Assembly (NCBI RefSeq): GCF_030409875.1
Contig: NZ_JAUFQR010000001.1
Span: 1,860,001 to 1,924,000, forward strand
Reading direction: 5' to 3'
DNA from: Chryseobacterium tructae
Lineage (GTDB): Bacteria > Bacteroidota > Bacteroidia > Flavobacteriales > Weeksellaceae
Length of the DNA: 64,000 bases
The notes beneath the pieces were generated by a model that worked only from the letters and a program-made list of their open reading frames with translations, had not been told where the DNA came from and ran no database searches. Of this stretch, positions 31,638-41,245 are shown piece by piece; positions within the stretch are counted from its first letter, which is position 1; every line of letters begins with the position of its first letter. A program made the translations under genes and the position numbers.

Positions 31638-33151
31638 ATGTTATATTATAAAAAATATTATTTTTTAATATTTTGGGTACTGAGTGAATTGCTATACTCT
31701 CAGCAAAACCAAAAAGAATTAGATGTTAATTTATTACTAAAACGATCTGATTCTTATATTTATGTAGATTTTGAAAAATCACTGAAATTATCAAAGACAG
31801 CTCTGGCTAAGGCAGAAAAATTAAATAATTCTCAGAAAAGATCAGAGTCGTATCTGTATGTTGCTAAGTCTTTGATTTTTTTCAGGAGGTTTGATGAGTG
31901 TTTTCCCTATCTGGAAAAAGGAATTCAGGAAAAAGCATCTCAGAAAGATATTATATTGAAAGCATCATTCCTAAGTCTTCAGGCAAGTTATTACAGCAGA
32001 ATGTCATTGCCAAACAGGCCTATAGAAGGATTAATGAAGTGCTGCATCTGTTAAAATATAGGAATGATGTGGAATCCCAACTTATTAAATCCAATATGTA
32101 TATGGGACTTTCAGACTATTATGCAGAATTGGGAAATTATGAAACTTCACATTTATATATTGATAAATCAATTACAATTTCTGAAAAAATTAGTCAGATT
32201 CATTATTTTTCATCTAAGCGAATCCATAGGATGAGAGCATTTATTTATTTTTATAAAAGCAGTTTTTTTCTTGAAGAAAATAAGCCTGTTTTGGCTTATC
32301 CTTTTATTCGAAAGGCATATAATCAGGCTGTTCTTGAAAAATATAAATATATGGTTCCGTTCCATGAAATCTATGGAGATTATTACTTTAAGACTCAAAA
32401 CTATCAAAAAGCTATTGATTTTTATTTAAAATGTTTAGAAGAAAAGCGTAAGTTCAAGTGGCAGCATGCTTCCGGTTTAAATACTAAGATATCTAGGGCA
32501 TATAAGATGCTGGGAGATCATGAAAAACAAATCTACTATCTTGAAAAAGCAGAAAAAAGGCACAGTTTCGATTTAAAAAATGACCACAAAATTGTGGAGG
32601 GAGAAATGGATAGAACTTTAATAAAGAAACAGGTAACAGAAAGCAAATTAGTGAAAAATAATATTTTGTTTGTTGTTTTTTTGTTTTTGCTTTTTACTGT
32701 ATTGTTGGTAATTATTATAGCACACCATCAAAGCGTAAAAAAGAAAAATAGTGAGCTTATGGATGCACAAAAAATGATATTATACAAAAGAGAATCCGAA
32801 ATAAAAGAAAGAGAGGAAACGATTGGAGAATTACAAAGGAAGGTTAATGATTCCTTCTCTGAGCTTATTAATCTGGCTAAAAATAACTCCCCTTATTTTT
32901 TTTGCCGTTTTCAGGAGGTATATCCTGATTTCTGTACAAAAATGCTGGAAATAAATCCTATGCTAAAATCTTCTGAACTTATTTTCTGTGCCTATATATA
33001 TTTAAGATTTTCAACGAAAGAGATTGCTGAATATACATTTAAAGCAATTAAAACAATTGAAAATAATAGGTATAATCTAAGAAAAAGACTAAGGTTAGCT
33101 CCACAGGAAGATCTAATGATCTGGATCAGAAAGTATATAGATGCTAGGTAG
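31638..33151 (+). pseudogene. Membrane TPR-HTH transcriptional regulator, copy 1 (one-base frameshift)
   Basis: Frames 31638-32054 and the downstream frame ending at 33151 join if one A is added to AAA at 32012 (giving M-S-L-P-K-Q-A-Y-R-R-I-N-E-V-L), about 504 residues. The alignment to copy 2 at 37720 runs straight through the joint. Order: signal peptide/N-terminal helix, several TPR-like helical repeats (about 25-330), one TM helix (I-L-F-V-V-F-L-F-L-L-F-T-V-L-L-V), a coiled coil (E-I-K-E-R-E-E-T-I-G-E-L-Q), and a LuxR-like HTH (S-T-K-E-I-A-E-Y-T-F-K-A-I-K-T-I-E-N-N-R-Y-N-L-R-K-R-L). A periplasmic sensor wired to a cytoplasmic DNA-binding domain; it probably drives the fibre gene downstream. 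Confidence 0.82.
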
Positions 33152-33321
33152 CCAATGAGGCTGTTATTGGTTATAAATGAATCTGTCTCAGTAACGAGGT
33201 AGATTTTTTTTGTTAAAATGATATCAGCTACTGGTAGAAAAAGACAATTCGAATTATTTTTTGCCATATCTGAGTTTTGACTCTTTCAATATTTTGATAA
33301 TGACCATTAATGTATCTATAG

Positions 33322-33376
33322 AGGGATTGATGGGGGCTTCCTTTTTTTTCCTTTTTATATAAATCTCGTTCATTTG
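33322..33376 (+). promoter_or_regulatory. Fibre-module promoter A
   Basis: AGGGATTGATGGGGGCTT at 33322-33339 followed by a T-rich stretch. TTCATTTG (-7-like) starts at 33369, 33 nt after the last G of the motif. Same layout as promoters at 34963, 36379 and 39294. Lies between regulator copy 1 and the fibre gene at 33485. Confidence 0.7.
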
Positions 33377-33484
33377 TACTTATGGTTCTTGTATTATAAA
33401 CATTATTTAGAAATACAGAACATATTTGTAAGAACCTCAAAAGATCTTAGTTTCCATTTTTAAATTTAATAATTATTTAAACAA

Positions 33485-34614
33485 ATGAAAAAGACTTTAT
33501 TAATAGGAATACTGCTTTCGGCTACTCACGCTCATTCTCAAGTAGGTATCAATAATACTGCACCTAAAGCCACACTAGATGTAACAAATAGAACCGCAGA
33601 TGGCAGTAAACCCGAAGGAATTATTGCCCCACGTCTTTCAGGTAATCAGATTAAAGCGGCAGATGCTCAATATAGCAATGATCAGAAGGGTACACTTGTT
33701 TATGTCACAGCAGCTGTAAGTTCACCAACAGTAGGGAGTAAAACAGCCAATATTACTACAGAAGGGTACTATTATTTTGATGGTAATTTTTGGCAAAAAT
33801 TGAGCATAGGTACTTTTCCTGTAGATGCTGATATGACTAATGATGCTTGGTTAAATGATCCCACCAGCAGTATGGTAAAACTAAGCACTAAAGCTGACGG
33901 TACTACAAGGACTGCAGGTACTGAGTTTGTAGCTAAAGATAATGGAAATGTGGGAATAGGTACAAATAATCCCTCTGGGGCATTAGATGTAAGCAGTATA
34001 ACAGATGGTTTCTGATGCCACGAATGACAACTGCCCAGCGAAATGCAATATCTTCACCGGCAAAAGCAACCTTAGTCTTTGATACCACCTTAAATCAATA
34101 TTATTATTTCTCAGGACTGCAATGGGATCCCTTAGTTCCTGTAACAGCCAGTTCAAAAATATTTCAGATTGTCCGTAAGAATACAAACCAGACCATACCA
34201 GCAGCTGATGTTGCTGGAGATATTACTTTTAACTCATCTTCAGGACAAGGCGATGGGGTAATTATAGATGGATCTACTATTAGTCTTCCGGCGGGGAAAA
34301 CATTTCTTCTTACTGGATATTTAGCAATAGGAAAAAACTCCAATAGCACACAAAGCTGGGCAAGTTATGAAATTGTGGATTCAACATCGAATAATTCTTC
34401 AGTTTGCACAGTTGCTTCAAGGGGATATAGTGAACCTTCCACGGAAGTAAGTAATGATTCACAAGGAGGCCCTGCTTTATGTATGATTAATACCGGAACC
34501 TCAATAAAAAAAATAAAACTTCGTATAACTAATAAAAGAACAGACGCTAATATAGTTACAACATCAATAGAAGATCCTTATGCAGAAACAGCAGTATTAA
34601 TACAAGAATTATAA
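33485..34614 (+). pseudogene. Secreted fibre protein with C1q-like C-terminus (one-base frameshift)
   Basis: Frames 33485-34015 and 34015-34614 join if one base is added at 34012, restoring D-G-F-L-M-P-R-M-T-T-A-Q-R-N-A-I, a standard motif of this family; about 376 residues. Signal peptide (MKKTLLIGILLSATHAHSQ), fibre start V-G-I-N-N-T-A-P-K-A-T-L-D-V, a second fibre motif N-G-N-V-G-I-G-T-N-N-P-S-G-A-L-D-V, then a beta-sandwich-like C-terminus (L-P-A-G-K-T-F-L-L-T-G-Y-L-A-I-G). Such proteins resemble phage-tail-like trimeric fibres; I infer a cell-surface or secreted adhesin. Confidence 0.8.
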
Positions 34615-34820
34615 TTGGAGATCTCCTAAACCATATTCAATCATCTCTAATCATCTATATAAACAATAAAAAACAAAACCGGAAATAAAAAGAAAGAAAA
34701 GATAAGGAATAAAGATTTGTGAAGTATGCCATTGATTCTTACTCCGTGCTCTTTGATTGAGTAAATGAATCAGAAGGTTATCGATGGTACTCCATGAGAT
34801 GATTGTTAGTTATAGTAATT

Positions 34821-34847
34821 AGGAACCTGAAAAAGGTTCTTTTTTTA
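34821..34847 (+). terminator. Terminator downstream of the fibre gene
   Basis: GAACC, TGAAAAA loop, GGTTC, then TTTTTTT. It is 200 nt after the stop codon. The 34615-35184 gap otherwise holds only promoter B. Confidence 0.7.
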
Positions 34848-34962
34848 TAGCAAAATGTGTAATTGCTTAGTGAAAAAAGGTGTAATTTTTTTTAATTGTT
34901 TGTCTTAATATATTTAAATTTTATTCTATTAATTGGTTGGTAATGAGGTTTTTTTTTAATAG

Positions 34963-35017
34963 AGGGTCTGATGAGGGTTTGATTTTTTTCTTTTTTTGAA
35001 TGCATTTTGTTCTTTTA
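34963..35017 (+). promoter_or_regulatory. Fibre-module promoter B
   Basis: AGGGTCTGATGAGGGTTT at 34963-34980, then T-rich DNA. TTCTTTTA at 35010-35017 occupies the position of TTCATTTG, again 33 nt from the last G. Lies 168 nt before the gene at 35185. Confidence 0.65.
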
Positions 35018-35184
35018 CAATCAGCAGTTTTTAATATTGATATTCATTATAGATGTGATTTTATTATAGTGATAAGAAATAGGATGATATATATTAAAAT
35101 TACCATGTAATATATCTTGTCATTAAATAGAGAATCAAAAGAATAAATTAAATATAAATGTCTTAATAATTAAAAAATGTAAAA

Positions 35185-35919
35185 ATGAGAGAAAAAATAA
35201 ATTTTAGTATTTTTTTACTGATAAGTCTATCCATATTTGGACAGGTAGGTGTTAATACCGCAACTCCTCAAAAAACTTTGCACGTTAACGGGTCTTTGCA
35301 GCTTGTAAAAGAATTGAATGTAGGAGGAACTTCTTCTACAGCCGGTTCTGCAGGAGATGCTGGCCAGGTACTTAAATCTAATGGGCCGGATGCCGCGCCT
35401 ACATGGCAAAACCTTGCAGGGGTTCCAAGCTCTACCGGAACTGTGATTGTAGTGAATGGTCAGTTTCTGGTGGCCCAAGAAATAATAGAGCAAATGTCTG
35501 CTGATTATACAGAAATCGGTACAGGTCCTGCAGTTTCAATAGGAAATTTAAATAATGAAATTGTAGATAATGAAAACCTTTATACGGGTTCAGGTACTAC
35601 TAATTCATTTAAAATATCAGCTGACGGTGTTTATCAAATCACAATCAATGCACAATTATCAACAACTAATGGAACATATCCAACAATAGGGATCTGGGAT
35701 AATACAAATACCAAATGGGTAGCAAGAGTTAACGATCAATTTGCAGCTCCAACCGGTGGTTTACAGACTTACACTCTGCTAACCTCTATTCCTATGTTAG
35801 CCGCTAATATATATTCATTCCGAATAGCAAATACATCCAGCGTAACTATAAGACACCTAAGCTCTGGTACTACGGGCTCAGGGCCAATTACTCAAATGTC
35901 TTTGAAAAGATTAAAATAA
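35185..35919 (+). CDS. Secreted fibre protein with C1q-like C-terminus
   Basis: 244 residues, intact. Signal peptide, then Q-V-G-V-N-T-A-T-P-Q-K-T-L-H-V-N-G (fibre start), a glycine/serine stretch ending G-Q-V-L-K-S-N-G-P-D-A-A-P-T-W, and a C-terminal beta-sandwich with the C1q/TNF-like pattern S-A-D-G-V-Y-Q-I-T-I-N-A-Q-L. Predicted trimeric and extracellular. It has its own promoter B. Confidence 0.85.
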   Translation: MREKINFSIFLLISLSIFGQVGVNTATPQKTLHVNGSLQLVKELNVGGTSSTAGSAGDAGQVLKSNGPDAAPTWQNLAGVPSSTGTVIVVNGQFLVAQEIIEQMSADYTEIGTGPAVSIGNLNNEIVDNENLYTGSGTTNSFKISADGVYQITINAQLSTTNGTYPTIGIWDNTNTKWVARVNDQFAAPTGGLQTYTLLTSIPMLAANIYSFRIANTSSVTIRHLSSGTTGSGPITQMSLKRLK

Positions 35920-35980
35920 GTAAATAATTAGATTATTTATACTCAGACATTAAAAATATCGTAGTCAGAAAATCAATTTT

Positions 35981-36249
35981 GTGAAAACGGGCTTATTTGT
36001 TTTTTTACCCTCTTGTCTCAAATTTTTCAAATACAAGAAGTTTATTATAAGTCGTTTAGCTTTATATTATATTTATTTTACTTTCCTCTTTTATGATGAT
36101 TATAAAACATTTAACTGGTTTGCAATTTCAATAATAATTGGAGCATTGCTTTCTTTTTAATACTTGTTGGCAATAGGCTATATATTTTAAATCTCCCGAT
36201 CATAATATGGTATCCCAAGACTGTGCTTGTTTTAGTAACACCCCCTTAA
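35981..36249 (+). pseudogene. Possible small membrane protein with a one-base frameshift
   Basis: From a GTG at 35981, 59 hydrophobic codons end at TAA 36158. Adding one T to the TTTTT run just before it continues the frame as F-L-I-L-V-G-N-R-L-Y-I-L-N-L-P-I-I-I-W-Y-P-K to 36249, about 89 residues with two or three TM helices. No family. The start is unsupported, so this is tentative. It occupies half of the 35920-36550 gap; promoter C lies in the other half. Confidence 0.3.
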
Positions 36250-36378
36250 AATGAGTTTTTATGGTATGGAAGATTATAGAAATATTTTATAAAAAACTAA
36301 AGGTTAACTCTTTTCTTTTTATTCTATGGTGGGTTTTAATATTTGTAAATATTTGTTAATCAGTTTATTATTTTAATG

Positions 36379-36433
36379 AGGGATGGATGAGGGCTTCTTA
36401 TTTTTCTTTTTTTTGTCAAATTATGTTCATTTG
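36379..36433 (+). promoter_or_regulatory. Fibre-module promoter C (in front of the HTH gene pair)
   Basis: AGGGATGGATGAGGGCTT at 36379-36396, T-rich DNA, TTCATTTG at 36426-36433, 33 nt from the last G. Overlapping second box: TAATGAGGGATGG. It lies upstream of the HTH gene at 36551, tying that pair to the fibre regulon. Confidence 0.7.
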
Positions 36434-36550
36434 CCAGTGTAATTAACACGATGGATGATCATAAAGAAATGGTAAAGAGTATGGCTGATTTTATTATAGT
36501 TCTTTAATAGAAGTTGTTATACATATAACCATTCTAAAAAATATAAAAAC

Positions 36551-36970
36551 ATGGAAGCTTTTAAAGATATTCATATCGGAATTATCATTAAACAAAGGGT
36601 TATAGAAAAAAAAATAGAAATTTCAAGAATCTGCAGTTTTATGAAATGTTCTGAAAATAATTTATTGCAGGTATATGACACAAAAAGTATAGATACTGAA
36701 GCCCTATTGAGATGGAGTAAACTTTTAGAATATGATTTTTTCAGAATCTATTCACAGCATCTTATACTGTATGCTCCACCATCTTCAGAAATCAAAAAAG
36801 AAATTAAAACAGAACTGCCACAGTTTCGTAAAAATATTTATACCAAAGAAGTCATTGATTTTATCCTGGAAAGAATTCAGACAAATAATATGACCAAAAA
36901 AGAAGTAATGGATCGTTACAAAATACCTAAAACGACTCTTTTTAGATGGGTTGAAAAATATAGTAAATAA
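36551..36970 (+). CDS. HTH protein A of a two-gene module
   Basis: 139 residues. The N-terminal half is XRE-like (I-K-Q-R-V-I-E-K-K-I-E-I-S-R-I-C-S-F-M-K-C-S-E-N). The C-terminal 45 residues are a second HTH (T-K-E-V-I-D-F-I-L-E-R-I, then Y-K-I-P-K-T-T-L-F-R-W-V-E-K-Y) resembling transposase OrfA-type domains. No catalytic transposase follows, so I read it as a DNA-binding regulator. The C-terminal part recurs at 61919-62062. Paired with the gene at 37019. Confidence 0.8.
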   Translation: MEAFKDIHIGIIIKQRVIEKKIEISRICSFMKCSENNLLQVYDTKSIDTEALLRWSKLLEYDFFRIYSQHLILYAPPSSEIKKEIKTELPQFRKNIYTKEVIDFILERIQTNNMTKKEVMDRYKIPKTTLFRWVEKYSK

Positions 36971-37018
36971 AAGAACTTTAATAATAATGTATTGATTAAT
37001 AAGAAATTTAAACAGGAT

Positions 37019-37345
37019 ATGGGGAAATATCAACGACCTGATTTCAGACAAATTTATCTGGATATTATTACTTCTAAGCATCCAGATAAATATGATCAGT
37101 GTAAAGACCTATTAGAAAAAAGAGAACTTTTTGTAATGGATATTCTGAAGATTAATATGTTTATTTTTTCTTCCTCTGAAAAAAATAGCCAGAAATACCG
37201 GGCCTATCAAAAATCTGACATTTTGCAAATACTAGACTTTCAAAAGAAAAATAAAATAAACAACACTCAATTGGCAGCGCACTTTAAGATGAGCAGAAAT
37301 ACCATCACGAGATGGAAAAAGATCTACTATAGTAATGAGTGTTGA
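37019..37345 (+). CDS. HTH protein B of a two-gene module
   Basis: I use the ATG at 37019 (M-G-K-Y-Q-R-P-D-F), giving 108 residues; the TTG at 36992 has no support. C-terminal HTH: I-N-N-T-Q-L-A-A-H-F-K-M-S-R-N-T-I-T-R-W-K-K. The front part D-I-I-T-S-K-H-P-D-K-Y-D-Q-C-K-D-L-L-E-K matches the paralogue at 62065 (D-I-I-K-L-Y-P-D-K-M-N-I-C-D-H-L-L-K-K). Co-directional with protein A, 48 nt after it. Confidence 0.78.
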   Translation: MGKYQRPDFRQIYLDIITSKHPDKYDQCKDLLEKRELFVMDILKINMFIFSSSEKNSQKYRAYQKSDILQILDFQKKNKINNTQLAAHFKMSRNTITRWKKIYYSNEC

Positions 37346-37453
37346 GTAAATATTCTTTTAATGAATATAAATATAGAAACATTGCATTTGAATCATCTGT
37401 TCATTAAACACAAAGCTAAATTAAAATTATTTTAACAATAAAAACTTTGCTTT

Positions 37454-37564
37454 ATGAAAAACATTATTTTCTTACTGAGTGTCATCAGGCCATATTTTTT
37501 TGAACAGGTTGGAATTTTGAATACTTTCTCTATGGTGACTTTAGGTGATACAGATAAAAAATGA
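37454..37564 (+). pseudogene. Remnant of a fibre gene start
   Basis: A 36-codon ORF with a signal-like start (MKNIIFLLSVIRPYFF) followed by E-Q-V-G-I-L-N-T-F-S, a decayed version of the fibre opening Q-V-G-I-N-T. It ends after 36 codons with no continuation in other frames that I can follow. Evidence that this locus once held another fibre gene just before regulator copy 2. Confidence 0.5.
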
Positions 37565-37719
37565 ACATGATATACTTTTGATGGGTTAGCTGGATTCAAA
37601 CAACGTTTTTCAATTCAGCCTATTATAAATTCTTTGATTTGAAAACGTTAGTTAAATCTACCATCACTTCAATCATACATAGGTCTTACAATCTATTATT
37701 ACCTTAAATCCATAGTACT

Positions 37720-39230
37720 ATGTTAACATATCAAAAGTTTTGTTTTCTACTATTTTTGATATTGAGCCCGCTTCTGTATCCTTTTCAAAACCAGAGGGAT
37801 TTAGATATTGATAAATTACTGGAATTATCAGATGCTACGATTTTCGTAGATTTTGAAAAATCCTTGAGTTCAGCAAAAATGGCTCTATCTATGGCTGAAC
37901 AGTCAGATAATTCTCAGAAAAGAGCAGAGTCTTATTTTTATATAGCTAAGTCATTAATTTTTTTCAGAAAGTTTGATGAGTGTTTTCCTTATTTGGAAAA
38001 AGGTCTTCAGGAAAAAGCTTGTCAGAATGATATTATATTGAAAGCATCTTTCCTGGGTCTTCAGTCAACTTACTATAGCAGAATGTCTCTCTTCGAGCAG
38101 GCATACCAAAAAAACTTAGAAGTGTTGAAGTTGTTAAAATCCAGACATGATTTGGAATCCCAACTTATCAAATCCAATATGTACATAGGAATTGCTGACT
38201 ATTATACAGAATTGAGTAATTATAAAATGGCACATCACTATGCTGATATCTCTATTGCCATTTCTGAAAAAATTGATCTCAAAGATTATCTTTCTGCTAA
38301 ACATATTTACAGGTATAGGGCATTTATATATTTTTATAAAAGCTGGATTTTTCTTGAAGAAAATAAACCTGATTCCGCCTATTCTTTTATTCAAAAGGCT
38401 TATGATCAGGCTATTTTTGAAAAATATAAATTTCTGGCTCCGTTCTATGAAACCTATGGAGATTATTATTTTAAGGTTCATAATTTCAAAAAGGCAGTTA
38501 GTTTTTATTTAAAGTGTTTAGAAAATAAACATAAGTTCAGACAAAATGCAGCTAATGTAAATGCTAAAATATCTAAAACTTATAAGCTGTTAGGTGATCG
38601 GGAGAAAGAAATCTATTATCTTCAAAAAGCAGAAAGTATGCGTACACTAGATTCGAAGAGTGATAGTAAGATTGTTCAAGAAGAATTGAACCGGACTTTG
38701 GTAAAGAAACAGACTGAAGAGAATAAATTAATGAAAAACAATACCTTGTTTATTGTCTTTATAATTTTATTTTTTACTGTTTTTTTGGTAACCATTATCG
38801 TTCATGAGCGAAGGATAAAAAATAAAAAGAGTGAGATCATTAGTGCACAGAAAATAATAATACACAAAAAAGAATCAGAAATAAAAGAAAGAGAACAAAA
38901 AATTGGAGAGTTGCAAAAAAAAGTAACTGATGCCCTCCCTGAGCTTATTGATTTGGTTAAGAATAATTCCCCTTATTTTTTTGGACGTTTTCAAGAAGTA
39001 TACCCTGAGTTCTGCTTAAAAATGTTAGAAATAAACCCGATGCTAAAATCTTCTGAACTCACTTTCTGTGCCTATATTTATTTAGGGATTTCTACCAAAG
39101 AAATTGCAAATATACCTTTAAATCAGGTAAAACAATTGAAAATAATAGATATAATATTAGGAAAAGGCTGAATCTTCAGTCACAAGAAGATCTTATGGTA
39201 TGGATCAGAATGTATATAGATGGAGCGTAA
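37720..39230 (+). pseudogene. Membrane TPR-HTH transcriptional regulator, copy 2 (one-base frameshift near the 3' end)
   Basis: Paralogue of the gene at 31638 with the same order: signal/N-terminal helix, TPR-like repeats (for example A-K-S-L-I-F-F-R-K-F-D-E-C-F-P-Y-L-E-K-G), TM helix (L-F-I-V-F-I-I-L-F-F-T-V-F-L-V-T-I-I-V), coiled coil, LuxR-like HTH. The frame breaks in the AAA at 39108. One added A restores Y-T-F-K-S-G-K-T-I-E-N-N-R-Y-N-I-R-K-R-L and a natural C-terminus at 39230, about 503 residues. Directly upstream of promoter D and two fibre genes, which it probably controls. Confidence 0.82.
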
Positions 39231-39293
39231 AGAGATTCTTGCTCTTACTATATTGGGGTTTTTAGTTTTCTGATATTTAGTCATTTATATATC

Positions 39294-39350
39294 GGGTGGC
39301 TAATGAGGGATGGCTTTTTCCCTTTTCTTATTAAGGATTTCATTCATTTG
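39294..39350 (+). promoter_or_regulatory. Fibre-module promoter D
   Basis: GGGTGGCTAATGAGGGATGG at 39294-39313, T/C-rich DNA, TTCATTTG at 39343-39350, 34 nt from the last G of GAGGG. Between regulator copy 2 and the fibre pair at 39399 and 40331. Confidence 0.65.
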
Positions 39351-39398: not shown

Positions 39399-40327
39399 AT
39401 GAAAAGAATAGTATTTTTTTTTAAGGTATTGGTTTCTGTTCCATTACTTTCTCAGGTAGGCATTAATGAAATTAACCCTAGTGCTACATTAGACATTAAA
39501 TCTAAAGGAAATACCAATGGAACCAAAGCATTGGAAATAAATAACTCTAATGGGCAGGAGATGGTAACTGTTTTAGATAATGGAAATGTTGGGATTAATG
39601 TTCCTTCTCCTAAAGCGAAATTGCATACGAATGGAAGTCTCAGATATGAAAATTTACCTGTAATTTCAGGTAACTTGTCTCCTTTGGCAATAAAAGGAGA
39701 TGGAACAGTAGGAACCTACGTCCCTGCACCTACCAAATACCTTTATATGACAATAGCTTCAACGGTAGCTATACCAAATTTCCCGCTTGCAGATCAAAAT
39801 CAATATACCAGTATTCCTCTTACATCTGCCCAGTCAGTTACGAATACAATTAATGCGGGATTTGGTACAGATAGTTCTGTGATGTTTAACATAAATGGTA
39901 TTACAAGTTCTGGATCGAATGTCAATTGTATATCATTTCCTGAAGCAGGCGTCTATAAAATAAATTTAAATTATTATACTTCCTGTACAGGAGAGCCTAC
40001 TGCACATTCAGGATTTAATTTTCTGGGAATAGGCACTGTCCTCTTTAAGGCAGATGCAGGGAGTACTGTTTATAATGGCTTGGCGGTTGTTCGCTATAAT
40101 GCTTTGACTATTAGAACTAATGCTGGCGAAGTGGCACCAAACTCTTATAATTTTGCACTTCCTCATAATGTTTTTTTGATTTTGAGACGACTGCTGCAAA
40201 TCAAAAAATAGCTTTTGCCGTAAACTATGGTGTAGGTGATAAATTCTCATCCAACTCGTGTTCATTTGTAGATCCTCCAGGACTTCCCAATAAAGTTACT
40301 TTGAATGTTCCAAACTGTAATGCTTAA
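39399..40327 (+). pseudogene. Secreted fibre protein with C1q-like C-terminus (one-base frameshift)
   Basis: ATG 39399 gives a signal peptide, then S-Q-V-G-I-N-E-I-N-P-S-A-T-L-D-I and the repeat motif N-G-N-V-G-I-N-V-P-S-P-K-A-K-L-H. The frame slips in T7 at 40171. One added T restores F-F-D-F-E-T-T-A-A-N-Q-K-I-A-F-A-V-N-Y and a stop at 40327, about 309 residues. The C-terminal region (F-P-E-A-G-V-Y-K-I-N-L-N-Y-Y) is C1q/TNF-like. Four nucleotides before the next fibre gene, clearly one operon. Confidence 0.82.
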
Positions 40328-40330
40328 GCT

Positions 40331-41245
40331 ATGAAAGAAAAAATCATCAGACTTACCATTTTAATATGCCTGAAAGTTTCTGGGCAGATAGGAATTAATA
40401 CATCAACTCCCTCAGCAATGGTAGATGTAGTTTCTAAGAGTAATACATCAACTACTAAAGCTATGATTCTTAAAAATTCTGATAATCTGGAATTGTTAAA
40501 GGTTCTCGATAATGGAAATGTAGGAATCAATACAGGGACGTCTTCCCCTTCAACTATTCTTGACGTCAATACAGATGTAAAACATGAAAATTTACCTGTT
40601 TTAACATCCCCTTATCAAACTTTGGCTCTAGATGCTAATGGAGGAATAAAGATTATCCCTACCAAAACTCAATATTTCTATTTTAAACGCAGTGGTTCAA
40701 AATTTGGAAGTTTTTCATTGTATGATCCCAATATATATAGTAATATTCCCTTTTCTGCGGGTAGTAATGTACTTGGTAATACTATTGGGATTAGTTTTGG
40801 AAATGACTCGTCCGGGAGTATTAATGGACAATCTGTGAATAATATTGACTATTTGATTATTCCCGAACCCGGAGTTTATGTTTTTGAAATGTATCAGACT
40901 GCGACCTGTAATGGTAGCCCAAGCACCTTAGCGAATATAGGACAGATTATGGTAAATACGATTTTTGGGACTGCTGCTAGTGGCACTTCCGTTTATTCAG
41001 TGAATAACACTTTCAGAAATTACTTAACTGCAAGAAGGAATATTCATGGAAAAGTATCTGTGGAGCCGTATACTCATGCTAATCCTCAAATGTTAAGTGT
41101 CGTTTATCAAAGTACTAAACCGAATGAAAAAGTTGCTCTTTTTATTAATTATGCAGGAGGGGATGCCTTTAATACAAAATCATGTTTTATGAGAATGCCT
41201 ATTAATAGTGATAATTTTGGTTATTTAATAATGACCAAGCTTTAA
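40331..41245 (+). CDS. Secreted fibre protein with C1q-like C-terminus
   Basis: 304 residues, intact, paralogous to the preceding gene. Opening S-G-Q-I-G-I-N-T-S-T-P-S-A-M-V-D-V, second fibre motif L-D-N-G-N-V-G-I-N-T-G, then H-E-N-L-P-V-L as in the upstream copy. C-terminal half with I-P-E-P-G-V-Y-V-F-E-M-Y-Q-T. Two adjacent, diverged copies suggest a hetero-oligomeric or antigenically varied fibre. Confidence 0.87.
   Translation: MKEKIIRLTILICLKVSGQIGINTSTPSAMVDVVSKSNTSTTKAMILKNSDNLELLKVLDNGNVGINTGTSSPSTILDVNTDVKHENLPVLTSPYQTLALDANGGIKIIPTKTQYFYFKRSGSKFGSFSLYDPNIYSNIPFSAGSNVLGNTIGISFGNDSSGSINGQSVNNIDYLIIPEPGVYVFEMYQTATCNGSPSTLANIGQIMVNTIFGTAASGTSVYSVNNTFRNYLTARRNIHGKVSVEPYTHANPQMLSVVYQSTKPNEKVALFINYAGGDAFNTKSCFMRMPINSDNFGYLIMTKL

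Follow-up and report, generated by a model that had tools for sequence, protein, structure and literature searches.

What recognizes the short G-rich box that stands at four places ahead of surface-protein and small regulator genes in Chryseobacterium tructae? The four copies lie in a stretch of 64,000 nucleotides (assembly GCF_030409875.1, contig NZ_JAUFQR010000001.1, positions 1,860,001 to 1,924,000, forward strand), referred to throughout as the window. A first-pass annotation of this DNA proposed that the neighbouring membrane regulators, which combine TPRs with a helix-turn-helix (HTH) domain, bind the box, and that it defines a local regulon. Our comparison of related genomes makes it very likely, as far as sequence can tell, that the box serves as operator for the membrane-anchored LuxR-type regulator encoded beside it, which would thereby activate surface modules and often its own gene.

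To our knowledge, few regulator-operator pairs are known in flavobacteria. The promoters and translation signals of these bacteria differ from those of most others, according to the parts of PMC9723704 available to us. A literature search at the level of titles and abstracts, in which subscription papers and bioRxiv were thinly covered, found no description of such regulators or boxes.

A direct repeat at a fixed distance from a proposed promoter element

Exact matches to AGGGNNNGATGRGGG occur at window positions 33322, 34963 and 36379, and a variant at 39294, as the first-pass annotation had it; the box proved to be one base longer than described. With that base added, boxes 1-3 are an 11-bp direct repeat, GAGGG-N6-GRGGG, and in box 4 the second GAGGG alone is kept cleanly. 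All four boxes, which we call class 1, share one orientation, and each is followed by T-rich DNA and then by an element that resembles the sigma-A -7 box. Counted from the last G of the box, this element begins 33 nt downstream at boxes 1-3 and 34 nt downstream at box 4, which bears out the distances reported earlier, and sites 1 and 4 do stand directly downstream of TPR-HTH genes. Bacteroidetes sigma-A promoters have a TTG at -33. The first-pass annotation had found this lacking, and none of the four window sites has a TTG 17-23 nt 5′ of the element; the observation does not extend to the class as a whole, as 33 of the 48 sites in our catalogue have one.

Taken within the window alone, the significance of the box is uninformative: with up to two mismatches allowed, three copies were found in the 64 kb against a shuffle mean of 2.97, no excess over shuffles. 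The pattern GAGGGNNNGATGRGGGNTT has three matches in the 5.63-Mb genome, all of them in the window (reversed control, 0), and no match in the 172 other genomes of the genus. The species-private motif that this pattern suggested was rejected, the pattern being too narrow because relatives have other bases (GCCT) after the box. An RNA element or a terminator was set aside by inspection alone, the box being without a complementary arm.

The spacing was then measured at 35 strict boxes for which no element was demanded. An element of the form T[TC]NNTTT[GA] starts at +33 in 32 of them and at +34 in three, and the 13 boxes without an additional G after the run all have it at +33; where the G-run is ambiguous, 32 nt is preferred in the 48-site catalogue, a preference that the 35-box analysis does not have. 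The -7 box of Bacteroidetes sigma-A, TAnnTTTG, lies at -12 to -5 in the available parts of PMC9723704, and the class-1 box would therefore lie at about -60 to -45. The second position of class-1 elements is occupied by T or C, not by the A of TAnnTTTG. Among 25 sites less than 75% identical to one another, the G-runs and TTTG are best conserved, and most spacer columns, apart from runs of T, are near background.

The box accompanies one recognition helix

We compared a genus set of 173 genomes, which includes that of the window, and a family set of 320 genomes, which includes the genus. With regulator B of the window as query and a cut-off of E <= 1e-60, 14 of the 173 genus genomes matched. 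The three closest relatives (L031, L032 and L033; 56-61% identity) have TAGAGGGCCTGATGAGGG 3′ of the regulator, and the box is followed first by an element of TTCATTTG or TCTATTTG type and then by a gene for a secreted protein. At L035, L038, L039, L040 and L044 (37-45% identity) variants such as AGGGTAGTTGTTGGGGGG and AGGGGTTGGTTGTGGGGG lie between the regulator and a fibre gene, and inspection of the flanks of L034, L036, L037, L042 and L043, whose regulators have other helices, revealed no box. A scan of named genomes added 14 loci in Chryseobacterium, Epilithonimonas, Empedobacter, Elizabethkingia and Sphingobacterium. A class-1 box was computed at seven of the 14 (L084, L085, L087, L088, L089, L094 and L095), and the strict box is absent from L090, L092, L093, L096 and L097, which have other helices; similar repeats seen by eye 3′ of the regulator at L086, GAGTAGTCGTTGAGTAGG, and at L091, GAGTACTTCTTGGGGGG (helix KTIENNR), are outside all counts.

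We located codons for the recognition helix KTIENNR at 49 places, in 38 of the 173 genomes. We fetched 41 stretches around such codons (L128-L168) and 13 comparators that hold related regulators with other helices. We scanned these 54 stretches together with the 14 named loci (866,707 bases in total) with a matrix trained on the four window sites alone. Its 37 top matches, with scores of at least 19.2, are promoter sites at regulator loci (some loci having been fetched twice); the maximum was 18.0 in reversed sequence and at most 17.5 in the comparators. There were 83 matches above 13, and among the 70 of these that were listed one non-promoter match, at 18.3 (L164), just exceeds the reversed maximum. 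A regulator is present in 32 of the 41 KTIENNR stretches, and 31 of the 32 have the box. The strict box is absent both from the nine stretches in which the codons lie outside a regulator and from the 13 comparators, which were scanned with the strict box and the four-site matrix but not with the loose regular expression.

The strict pattern, GAGGGNNNNNTGRGGG-N31-33-TNNNTTTG, has 31 matches in 26 of the 173 genomes and none in the reversed control. It was composed after sites at these loci had been seen, and its value therefore lies in the absence of matches elsewhere and in that control. All 26 genomes contain KTIENNR codons, and none of the 135 codon-free genomes has a match. The genome-wide search that the first-pass annotation had called for thus placed every strict match on the same contig as the helix (31/31), with 26 within 3 kb, 27 within 5 kb and all 31 within 17 kb. 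Of the 38 helix-bearing genomes, 12 lack a strict match: in five the codons belong to other proteins, in six the boxes are variants and one (G135) has no box. Fisher tests on these linkage counts, and on the target counts below, take related genomes as independent. The boxes, their geometry and their linkage to the helix are established by this comparison of sequences; the regulon is not just local, as the same box is used at related loci in many species. Several boxes and regulators are clustered together in G017 and G133, and the family set adds six strict matches in four genomes of other genera (G201, G206, G207 and G288), three of them at a KTIENNR regulator of G201.

Looser patterns were less selective. 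GAGGGNNTGATGAGGG with one mismatch has matches in 105 of the 173 genomes, mostly in unrelated DNA judging by sequence, and two exact matches that were opened, at L055 and L064, lie in coding sequence; the nine matches to AGRGTAGTNNTTGGGGGG with up to one mismatch comprise five promoters of regulator or fibre genes and four coding frames. A half-site variant, GRGTA, pairs with the helix TFKS(V/I)KTIENNR in four genomes of one clade (G011, G058, G087 and G101).

In a divergent class-1 clade (L128, L129, L136, L158, L160 and L164) the locus adjoins a shared gene of 346 amino acids (MRIENDIKLGFKDVMF...), and the box lies directly 3′ of this gene. Its product presumably resembles GMP reductase.

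Genes downstream of the box

The first-pass annotation raised the possibility that every match precedes either a fibre gene of the QVGIN type or a TPR-HTH regulator gene. This is true of 33 of the 48 catalogued sites, 17 of which precede a regulator and 16 a QVGIN-type gene. The others mostly precede further secreted or membrane proteins: 12 lie ahead of another protein with a hydrophobic N-terminus, two ahead of the small HTH gene HTH1 (site 3 of the window and one site in G133), and one is unclear. Inclusion of the HTH pair in the regulon, as first proposed, agrees with the position of box 3 before HTH1; at related loci, HTH1 or HTH2 falls within the fetched stretch at six of the 31 loci with regulator and box.

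A second regulator with a different box

The window genome contains a second surface module (L175; G000:C3:307500-320000) with a repeated box of its own, TGAGTA-N4-TGMGTA. One copy, TACGCATGAGTAGTATTGAGTA, lies ahead of the regulator and another, TACGCGTGAGTAGTATTGCGTA, ahead of the fibre gene, each 32 nt 5′ of TAATTTTG. A pattern derived from this pair, with TGAGTA-N4-TGCGTA as the class-2 box, has 53 matches in 38 of the 173 genomes, the original two among them, and none in the control. Fifty of the 53 lie within 1.5 kb of AVESKKYR-type codons, and the remaining three (L220, L225 and L227) adjoin regulators with AVESRKYR or AIESRKYR. At all 20 of the class-2 loci that we opened, the box adjoins a regulator, a GAVGIN-like surface gene or both.

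The class-2 element starts at +33 in 15 and at +34 in 10 of 25 sites, a biased spacing: the search pattern, in which the element is included, was used to fetch every locus other than L175 and L227, and it also guided the choice of L227. The elements are TAnnTTTG, mostly TAATTTTG, a form that the pattern demands and that was first seen without it at L175. The C-terminus of the class-2 regulator is related to that of class 1, having been found with a class-1 query, and four hydrophobic segments take the place of TPRs in the one class-2 regulator tested. Across the 173 genomes, the two classes do not cross within 20 kb: class-1 boxes are absent around class-2 helices, and class-2 boxes around class-1 helices. 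A search of 12 comparator stretches for perfect 6-base direct repeats 5′ of TAnnTTTG gave no peak, the L175 site alone falling at 31-33 nt, and found no boxes for other regulator types.

Architecture of the regulator and a model of its action

Pfam detects the TPRs of the class-1 regulator and leaves its GerE HTH below threshold (16.9, 20.4 and 21.0 bits in three regulators, against a cut-off of 23.5), and some homologues have a precomputed GerE domain. All eight class-1 regulators tested have one strong hydrophobic segment, at residues ~327-377, between the TPR part and the HTH. An AlphaFold2 model built from 12 sequences (pLDDT 87.7) places helical repeats at ~32-306, a long helix that includes the hydrophobic segment at 309-429 and the HTH at 459-517. 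The HTH modelled on its own (pLDDT 93.8) has the four helices of a GerE fold (36-46, 51-58, 62-75 and 84-94), and KTIENNR is located in the third long helix. Foldseek ranked VraR, LiaR, EvgA, DosR and RcsB at the top for this model, with NarL and ComA also found, at a probability of ~1, and structure comparison finds LGN, Rap of phage phi3T and NprR similar to the TPR part. The models thus support both the HTH and the TPR folds. A hydrophobic N-terminus together with a single internal segment suggests that the TPR superhelix is probably periplasmic, in a predicted membrane topology.

The neighbouring LuxR domain is the best candidate for the binding protein because it is linked to the box, the linkage is specific and the box changes when the helix does. 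The regulator would comprise, in order, an N-terminal secretion or anchor segment, the TPR superhelix, one transmembrane helix, a long coiled coil and the C-terminal NarL/LuxR-type HTH. Two HTH units could sit head-to-tail on the GAGGG-N6-GAGGG repeats, one helical turn apart, at ~-60 to -45, and the bound protein might then help sigma-A RNA polymerase at a promoter whose -7 element is weak (TTnnTTTG or TCnnTTTG instead of TAnnTTTG) and which, in the window, is also without the -33 TTG. Activation is suggested by the constant spacing between box and weak promoter, positive feedback by the boxes that precede regulator genes. The predicted targets are the surface 'VGIN' modules and the small HTH pairs, to which many species would add the regulator's own gene. 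The design recurs in the second regulator type, where another sensor and recognition helix go with a tandem-repeat box that differs in sequence but not in its distance from the element. Binding, activation, the transcription starts and a signal are inferred.

Several known systems offer partial parallels. Members of the ToxR/CadC family have an N-terminal OmpR-type winged HTH and a C-terminal periplasmic domain; the regulators described here, by contrast, have a C-terminal NarL/LuxR-type HTH and an N-terminal sensor, made of TPRs in class 1 and of multiple transmembrane segments in class 2. What the two have in common, as far as the available parts of PMC5430869 and PMC3096576 describe CadC, is a sensor, a single membrane helix and a DNA-binding domain in one protein that acts on a nearby promoter. 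The single helix between sensor and HTH is present in 8/8 class-1 regulators, whereas the class-2 regulator tested has four segments. The tetrahelical HTH fold of NarL/LuxR (GerE) domains such as those of VraR, LiaR, DosR, RcsB and NarL is shared with our model, albeit with a sub-threshold Pfam match; unlike those proteins, the regulators here are without a receiver or autoinducer domain, are membrane-tethered and would use a tandem direct-repeat operator at a fixed distance. The TPR superhelix of RRNPPA receptors (Rap of phage phi3T and NprR) resembles the class-1 sensor, but in the present regulators the HTH is at the opposite end, a membrane helix intervenes and no peptide is known, a peptide gene not having been looked for. 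Finally, the TnnnTTTG core is shared with Bacteroidetes sigma-A promoters, as presented in the available parts of PMC9723704; class 1 departs from that consensus in the T or C at position 2 and in an operator that ends 32-33 nt before the element.

Alternative explanations

The regulator could bind the box and yet repress, or repress and activate depending on the signal, and regulator-adjacent operators with self-control are compatible with either sign. Activators usually bind 5′ of the polymerase, and the box stands there, at a constant distance from a weak promoter; repression, alone or alongside activation, seems unlikely. It is decidedly unlikely that the small HTH1 and HTH2 proteins bind the box and that the membrane regulator is merely their neighbour. 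HTH1 genes do occur both in the cluster of the window and in several modules related to it, and a box stands directly ahead of HTH1 in the window, in G133 and in G207, the last in 13 kb without a regulator. However, the pair is present at only 6/31 of the regulator loci with a box, a count for the fetched stretches that leaves room for HTH1 elsewhere in those genomes, and the class of box switches with the LuxR helix, whereas HTH1 relatives accompany both classes.

Shared descent alone, in which duplicated modules have promoters that have not yet diverged and no dedicated regulator-operator link exists, would be in keeping with the 63% identity of regulators A and B and with the apparently duplicated modules. 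We consider it highly improbable, given that the G-runs and TTTG persist at the 25 divergent sites while most of the spacer does not, and that the same box precedes unrelated genes. Use of the box as a recombination site that shuffles surface genes is barely credible: repeated copies do lie beside variable surface genes, and databases often label relatives of HTH1 as 'transposase', but many genomes have a single copy, the window copies share an orientation and recombination requires no fixed distance to a promoter element.

Against the operator reading itself stand several observations. Both window regulators are frameshifted, A in its TPR part and B within the HTH. These frameshifts and that in fibre gene A, on which the first-pass annotation was silent, may be real decay, phase variation or assembly indels; the last are possible because the estimated completeness of the window genome is 97.3%, compared with 99-100% for most relatives. 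NarL-type domains often use inverted repeats. The Foldseek E-values of the HTH model are weak, the best being 0.047. One regulator locus (L161) is without a box, and there a shortened regulator adjoins a shortened fibre gene; no box is recognizable at the comparators with other helices, L175 excepted. In the family set, G207 has a box-promoter ahead of HTH1 and G206 one at a similar place without HTH1, each in a fetched 13 kb without a regulator, and the strict match of G288 is inside a coding frame. Lastly, a strict class-2 match is lacking in 24 of the 60 genomes that contain codons for a class-2 helix, none of these 24 having been opened.

Implications

A broader reading is that Flavobacteriia possess LuxR-type regulators, tethered to the membrane, that form a modular family in which sensors (TPR or multi-transmembrane) can be exchanged, each clade with a private tandem-repeat operator 32-33 nt before the -7 element that drives its own VGIN module and itself. 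This proposal is tentative, and we hold it a little short of probable because of the 24 class-2-helix genomes without a strict box and the box-free comparators. If true, such switches would be parallel, mutually insulated and self-reinforcing, and could sense the condition of the envelope or that of the displayed protein; private boxes would then await discovery in most clades of this family and could be located by the same geometry. In two separate clades, the operator, likely regulator, rigid geometry and targets can be read from sequence, which yields DNA-protein pairs that can be tested directly, a rule by which others can be found and a way into the choice of displayed surface proteins.

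Features of the window

Table 1. Class-1 boxes, proposed promoter elements and neighbouring genes in window coordinates, with two box-promoter stretches of another genus
Feature	Position	Strand	Basis
Box 1, GAGGG-N6-GGGGG, GAGGGATTGATGGGGG, proposed operator	33321..33336	+	sequence, matrix, spacing
Box 2, GAGGG-N6-GAGGG, GAGGGTCTGATGAGGG	34962..34977	+	sequence, spacing
Box 3, GAGGG-N6-GAGGG, GAGGGATGGATGAGGG, ahead of HTH1/HTH2 pair	36378..36393	+	sequence, spacing
Box 4, degenerate, GGGTGGCTAATGAGGG	39294..39309	+	sequence, spacing
Element 1, TTCATTTG, proposed -7 element	33369..33376	+	sequence; resembles sigma-A TAnnTTTG (available parts of PMC9723704)
Element 2, TTCTTTTA	35010..35017	+	sequence, spacing
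Element 3, TTCATTTG	36426..36433	+	sequence, spacing
Element 4, TTCATTTG, at +34	39343..39350	+	sequence, spacing
Regulator A, TPR/transmembrane/LuxR-type HTH gene, frameshift in TPR part	31638..33151	+	
Surface ('fibre') gene A, QVGIN-type, split over two frames	33485..34614	+	
Surface gene B, QVGVN-type	35185..35919	+	
HTH1, small helix-turn-helix protein	36551..36970	+	
HTH2, small helix-turn-helix protein	36992..37345	+	
Regulator B, TPR/transmembrane/LuxR-type HTH gene, frameshift inside HTH	37720..39229	+	
Surface gene D, QVGIN-type	39399..40211	+	
Surface gene E, QIGIN-type, no own box seen	40331..41245	+	
L203, class-1 box-promoter, another genus of the family	G206:C19:19000-32000		
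L204, class-1 box-promoter, another genus of the family	G207:C1:1909500-1922500		

Surface gene E is possibly co-transcribed with gene D. The HTH1/HTH2 pair (36551-37345) is a recurrent companion of VGIN modules; among 3210 homologues of HTH1 several are labelled 'transposase' in databases, yet the pair occurs here in non-transposon contexts. Downstream of HTH2, a short frame at 37454-37564 (MKNIIFLLSV...FFEQVGI) resembles the remnant of a QVGIN-type gene.

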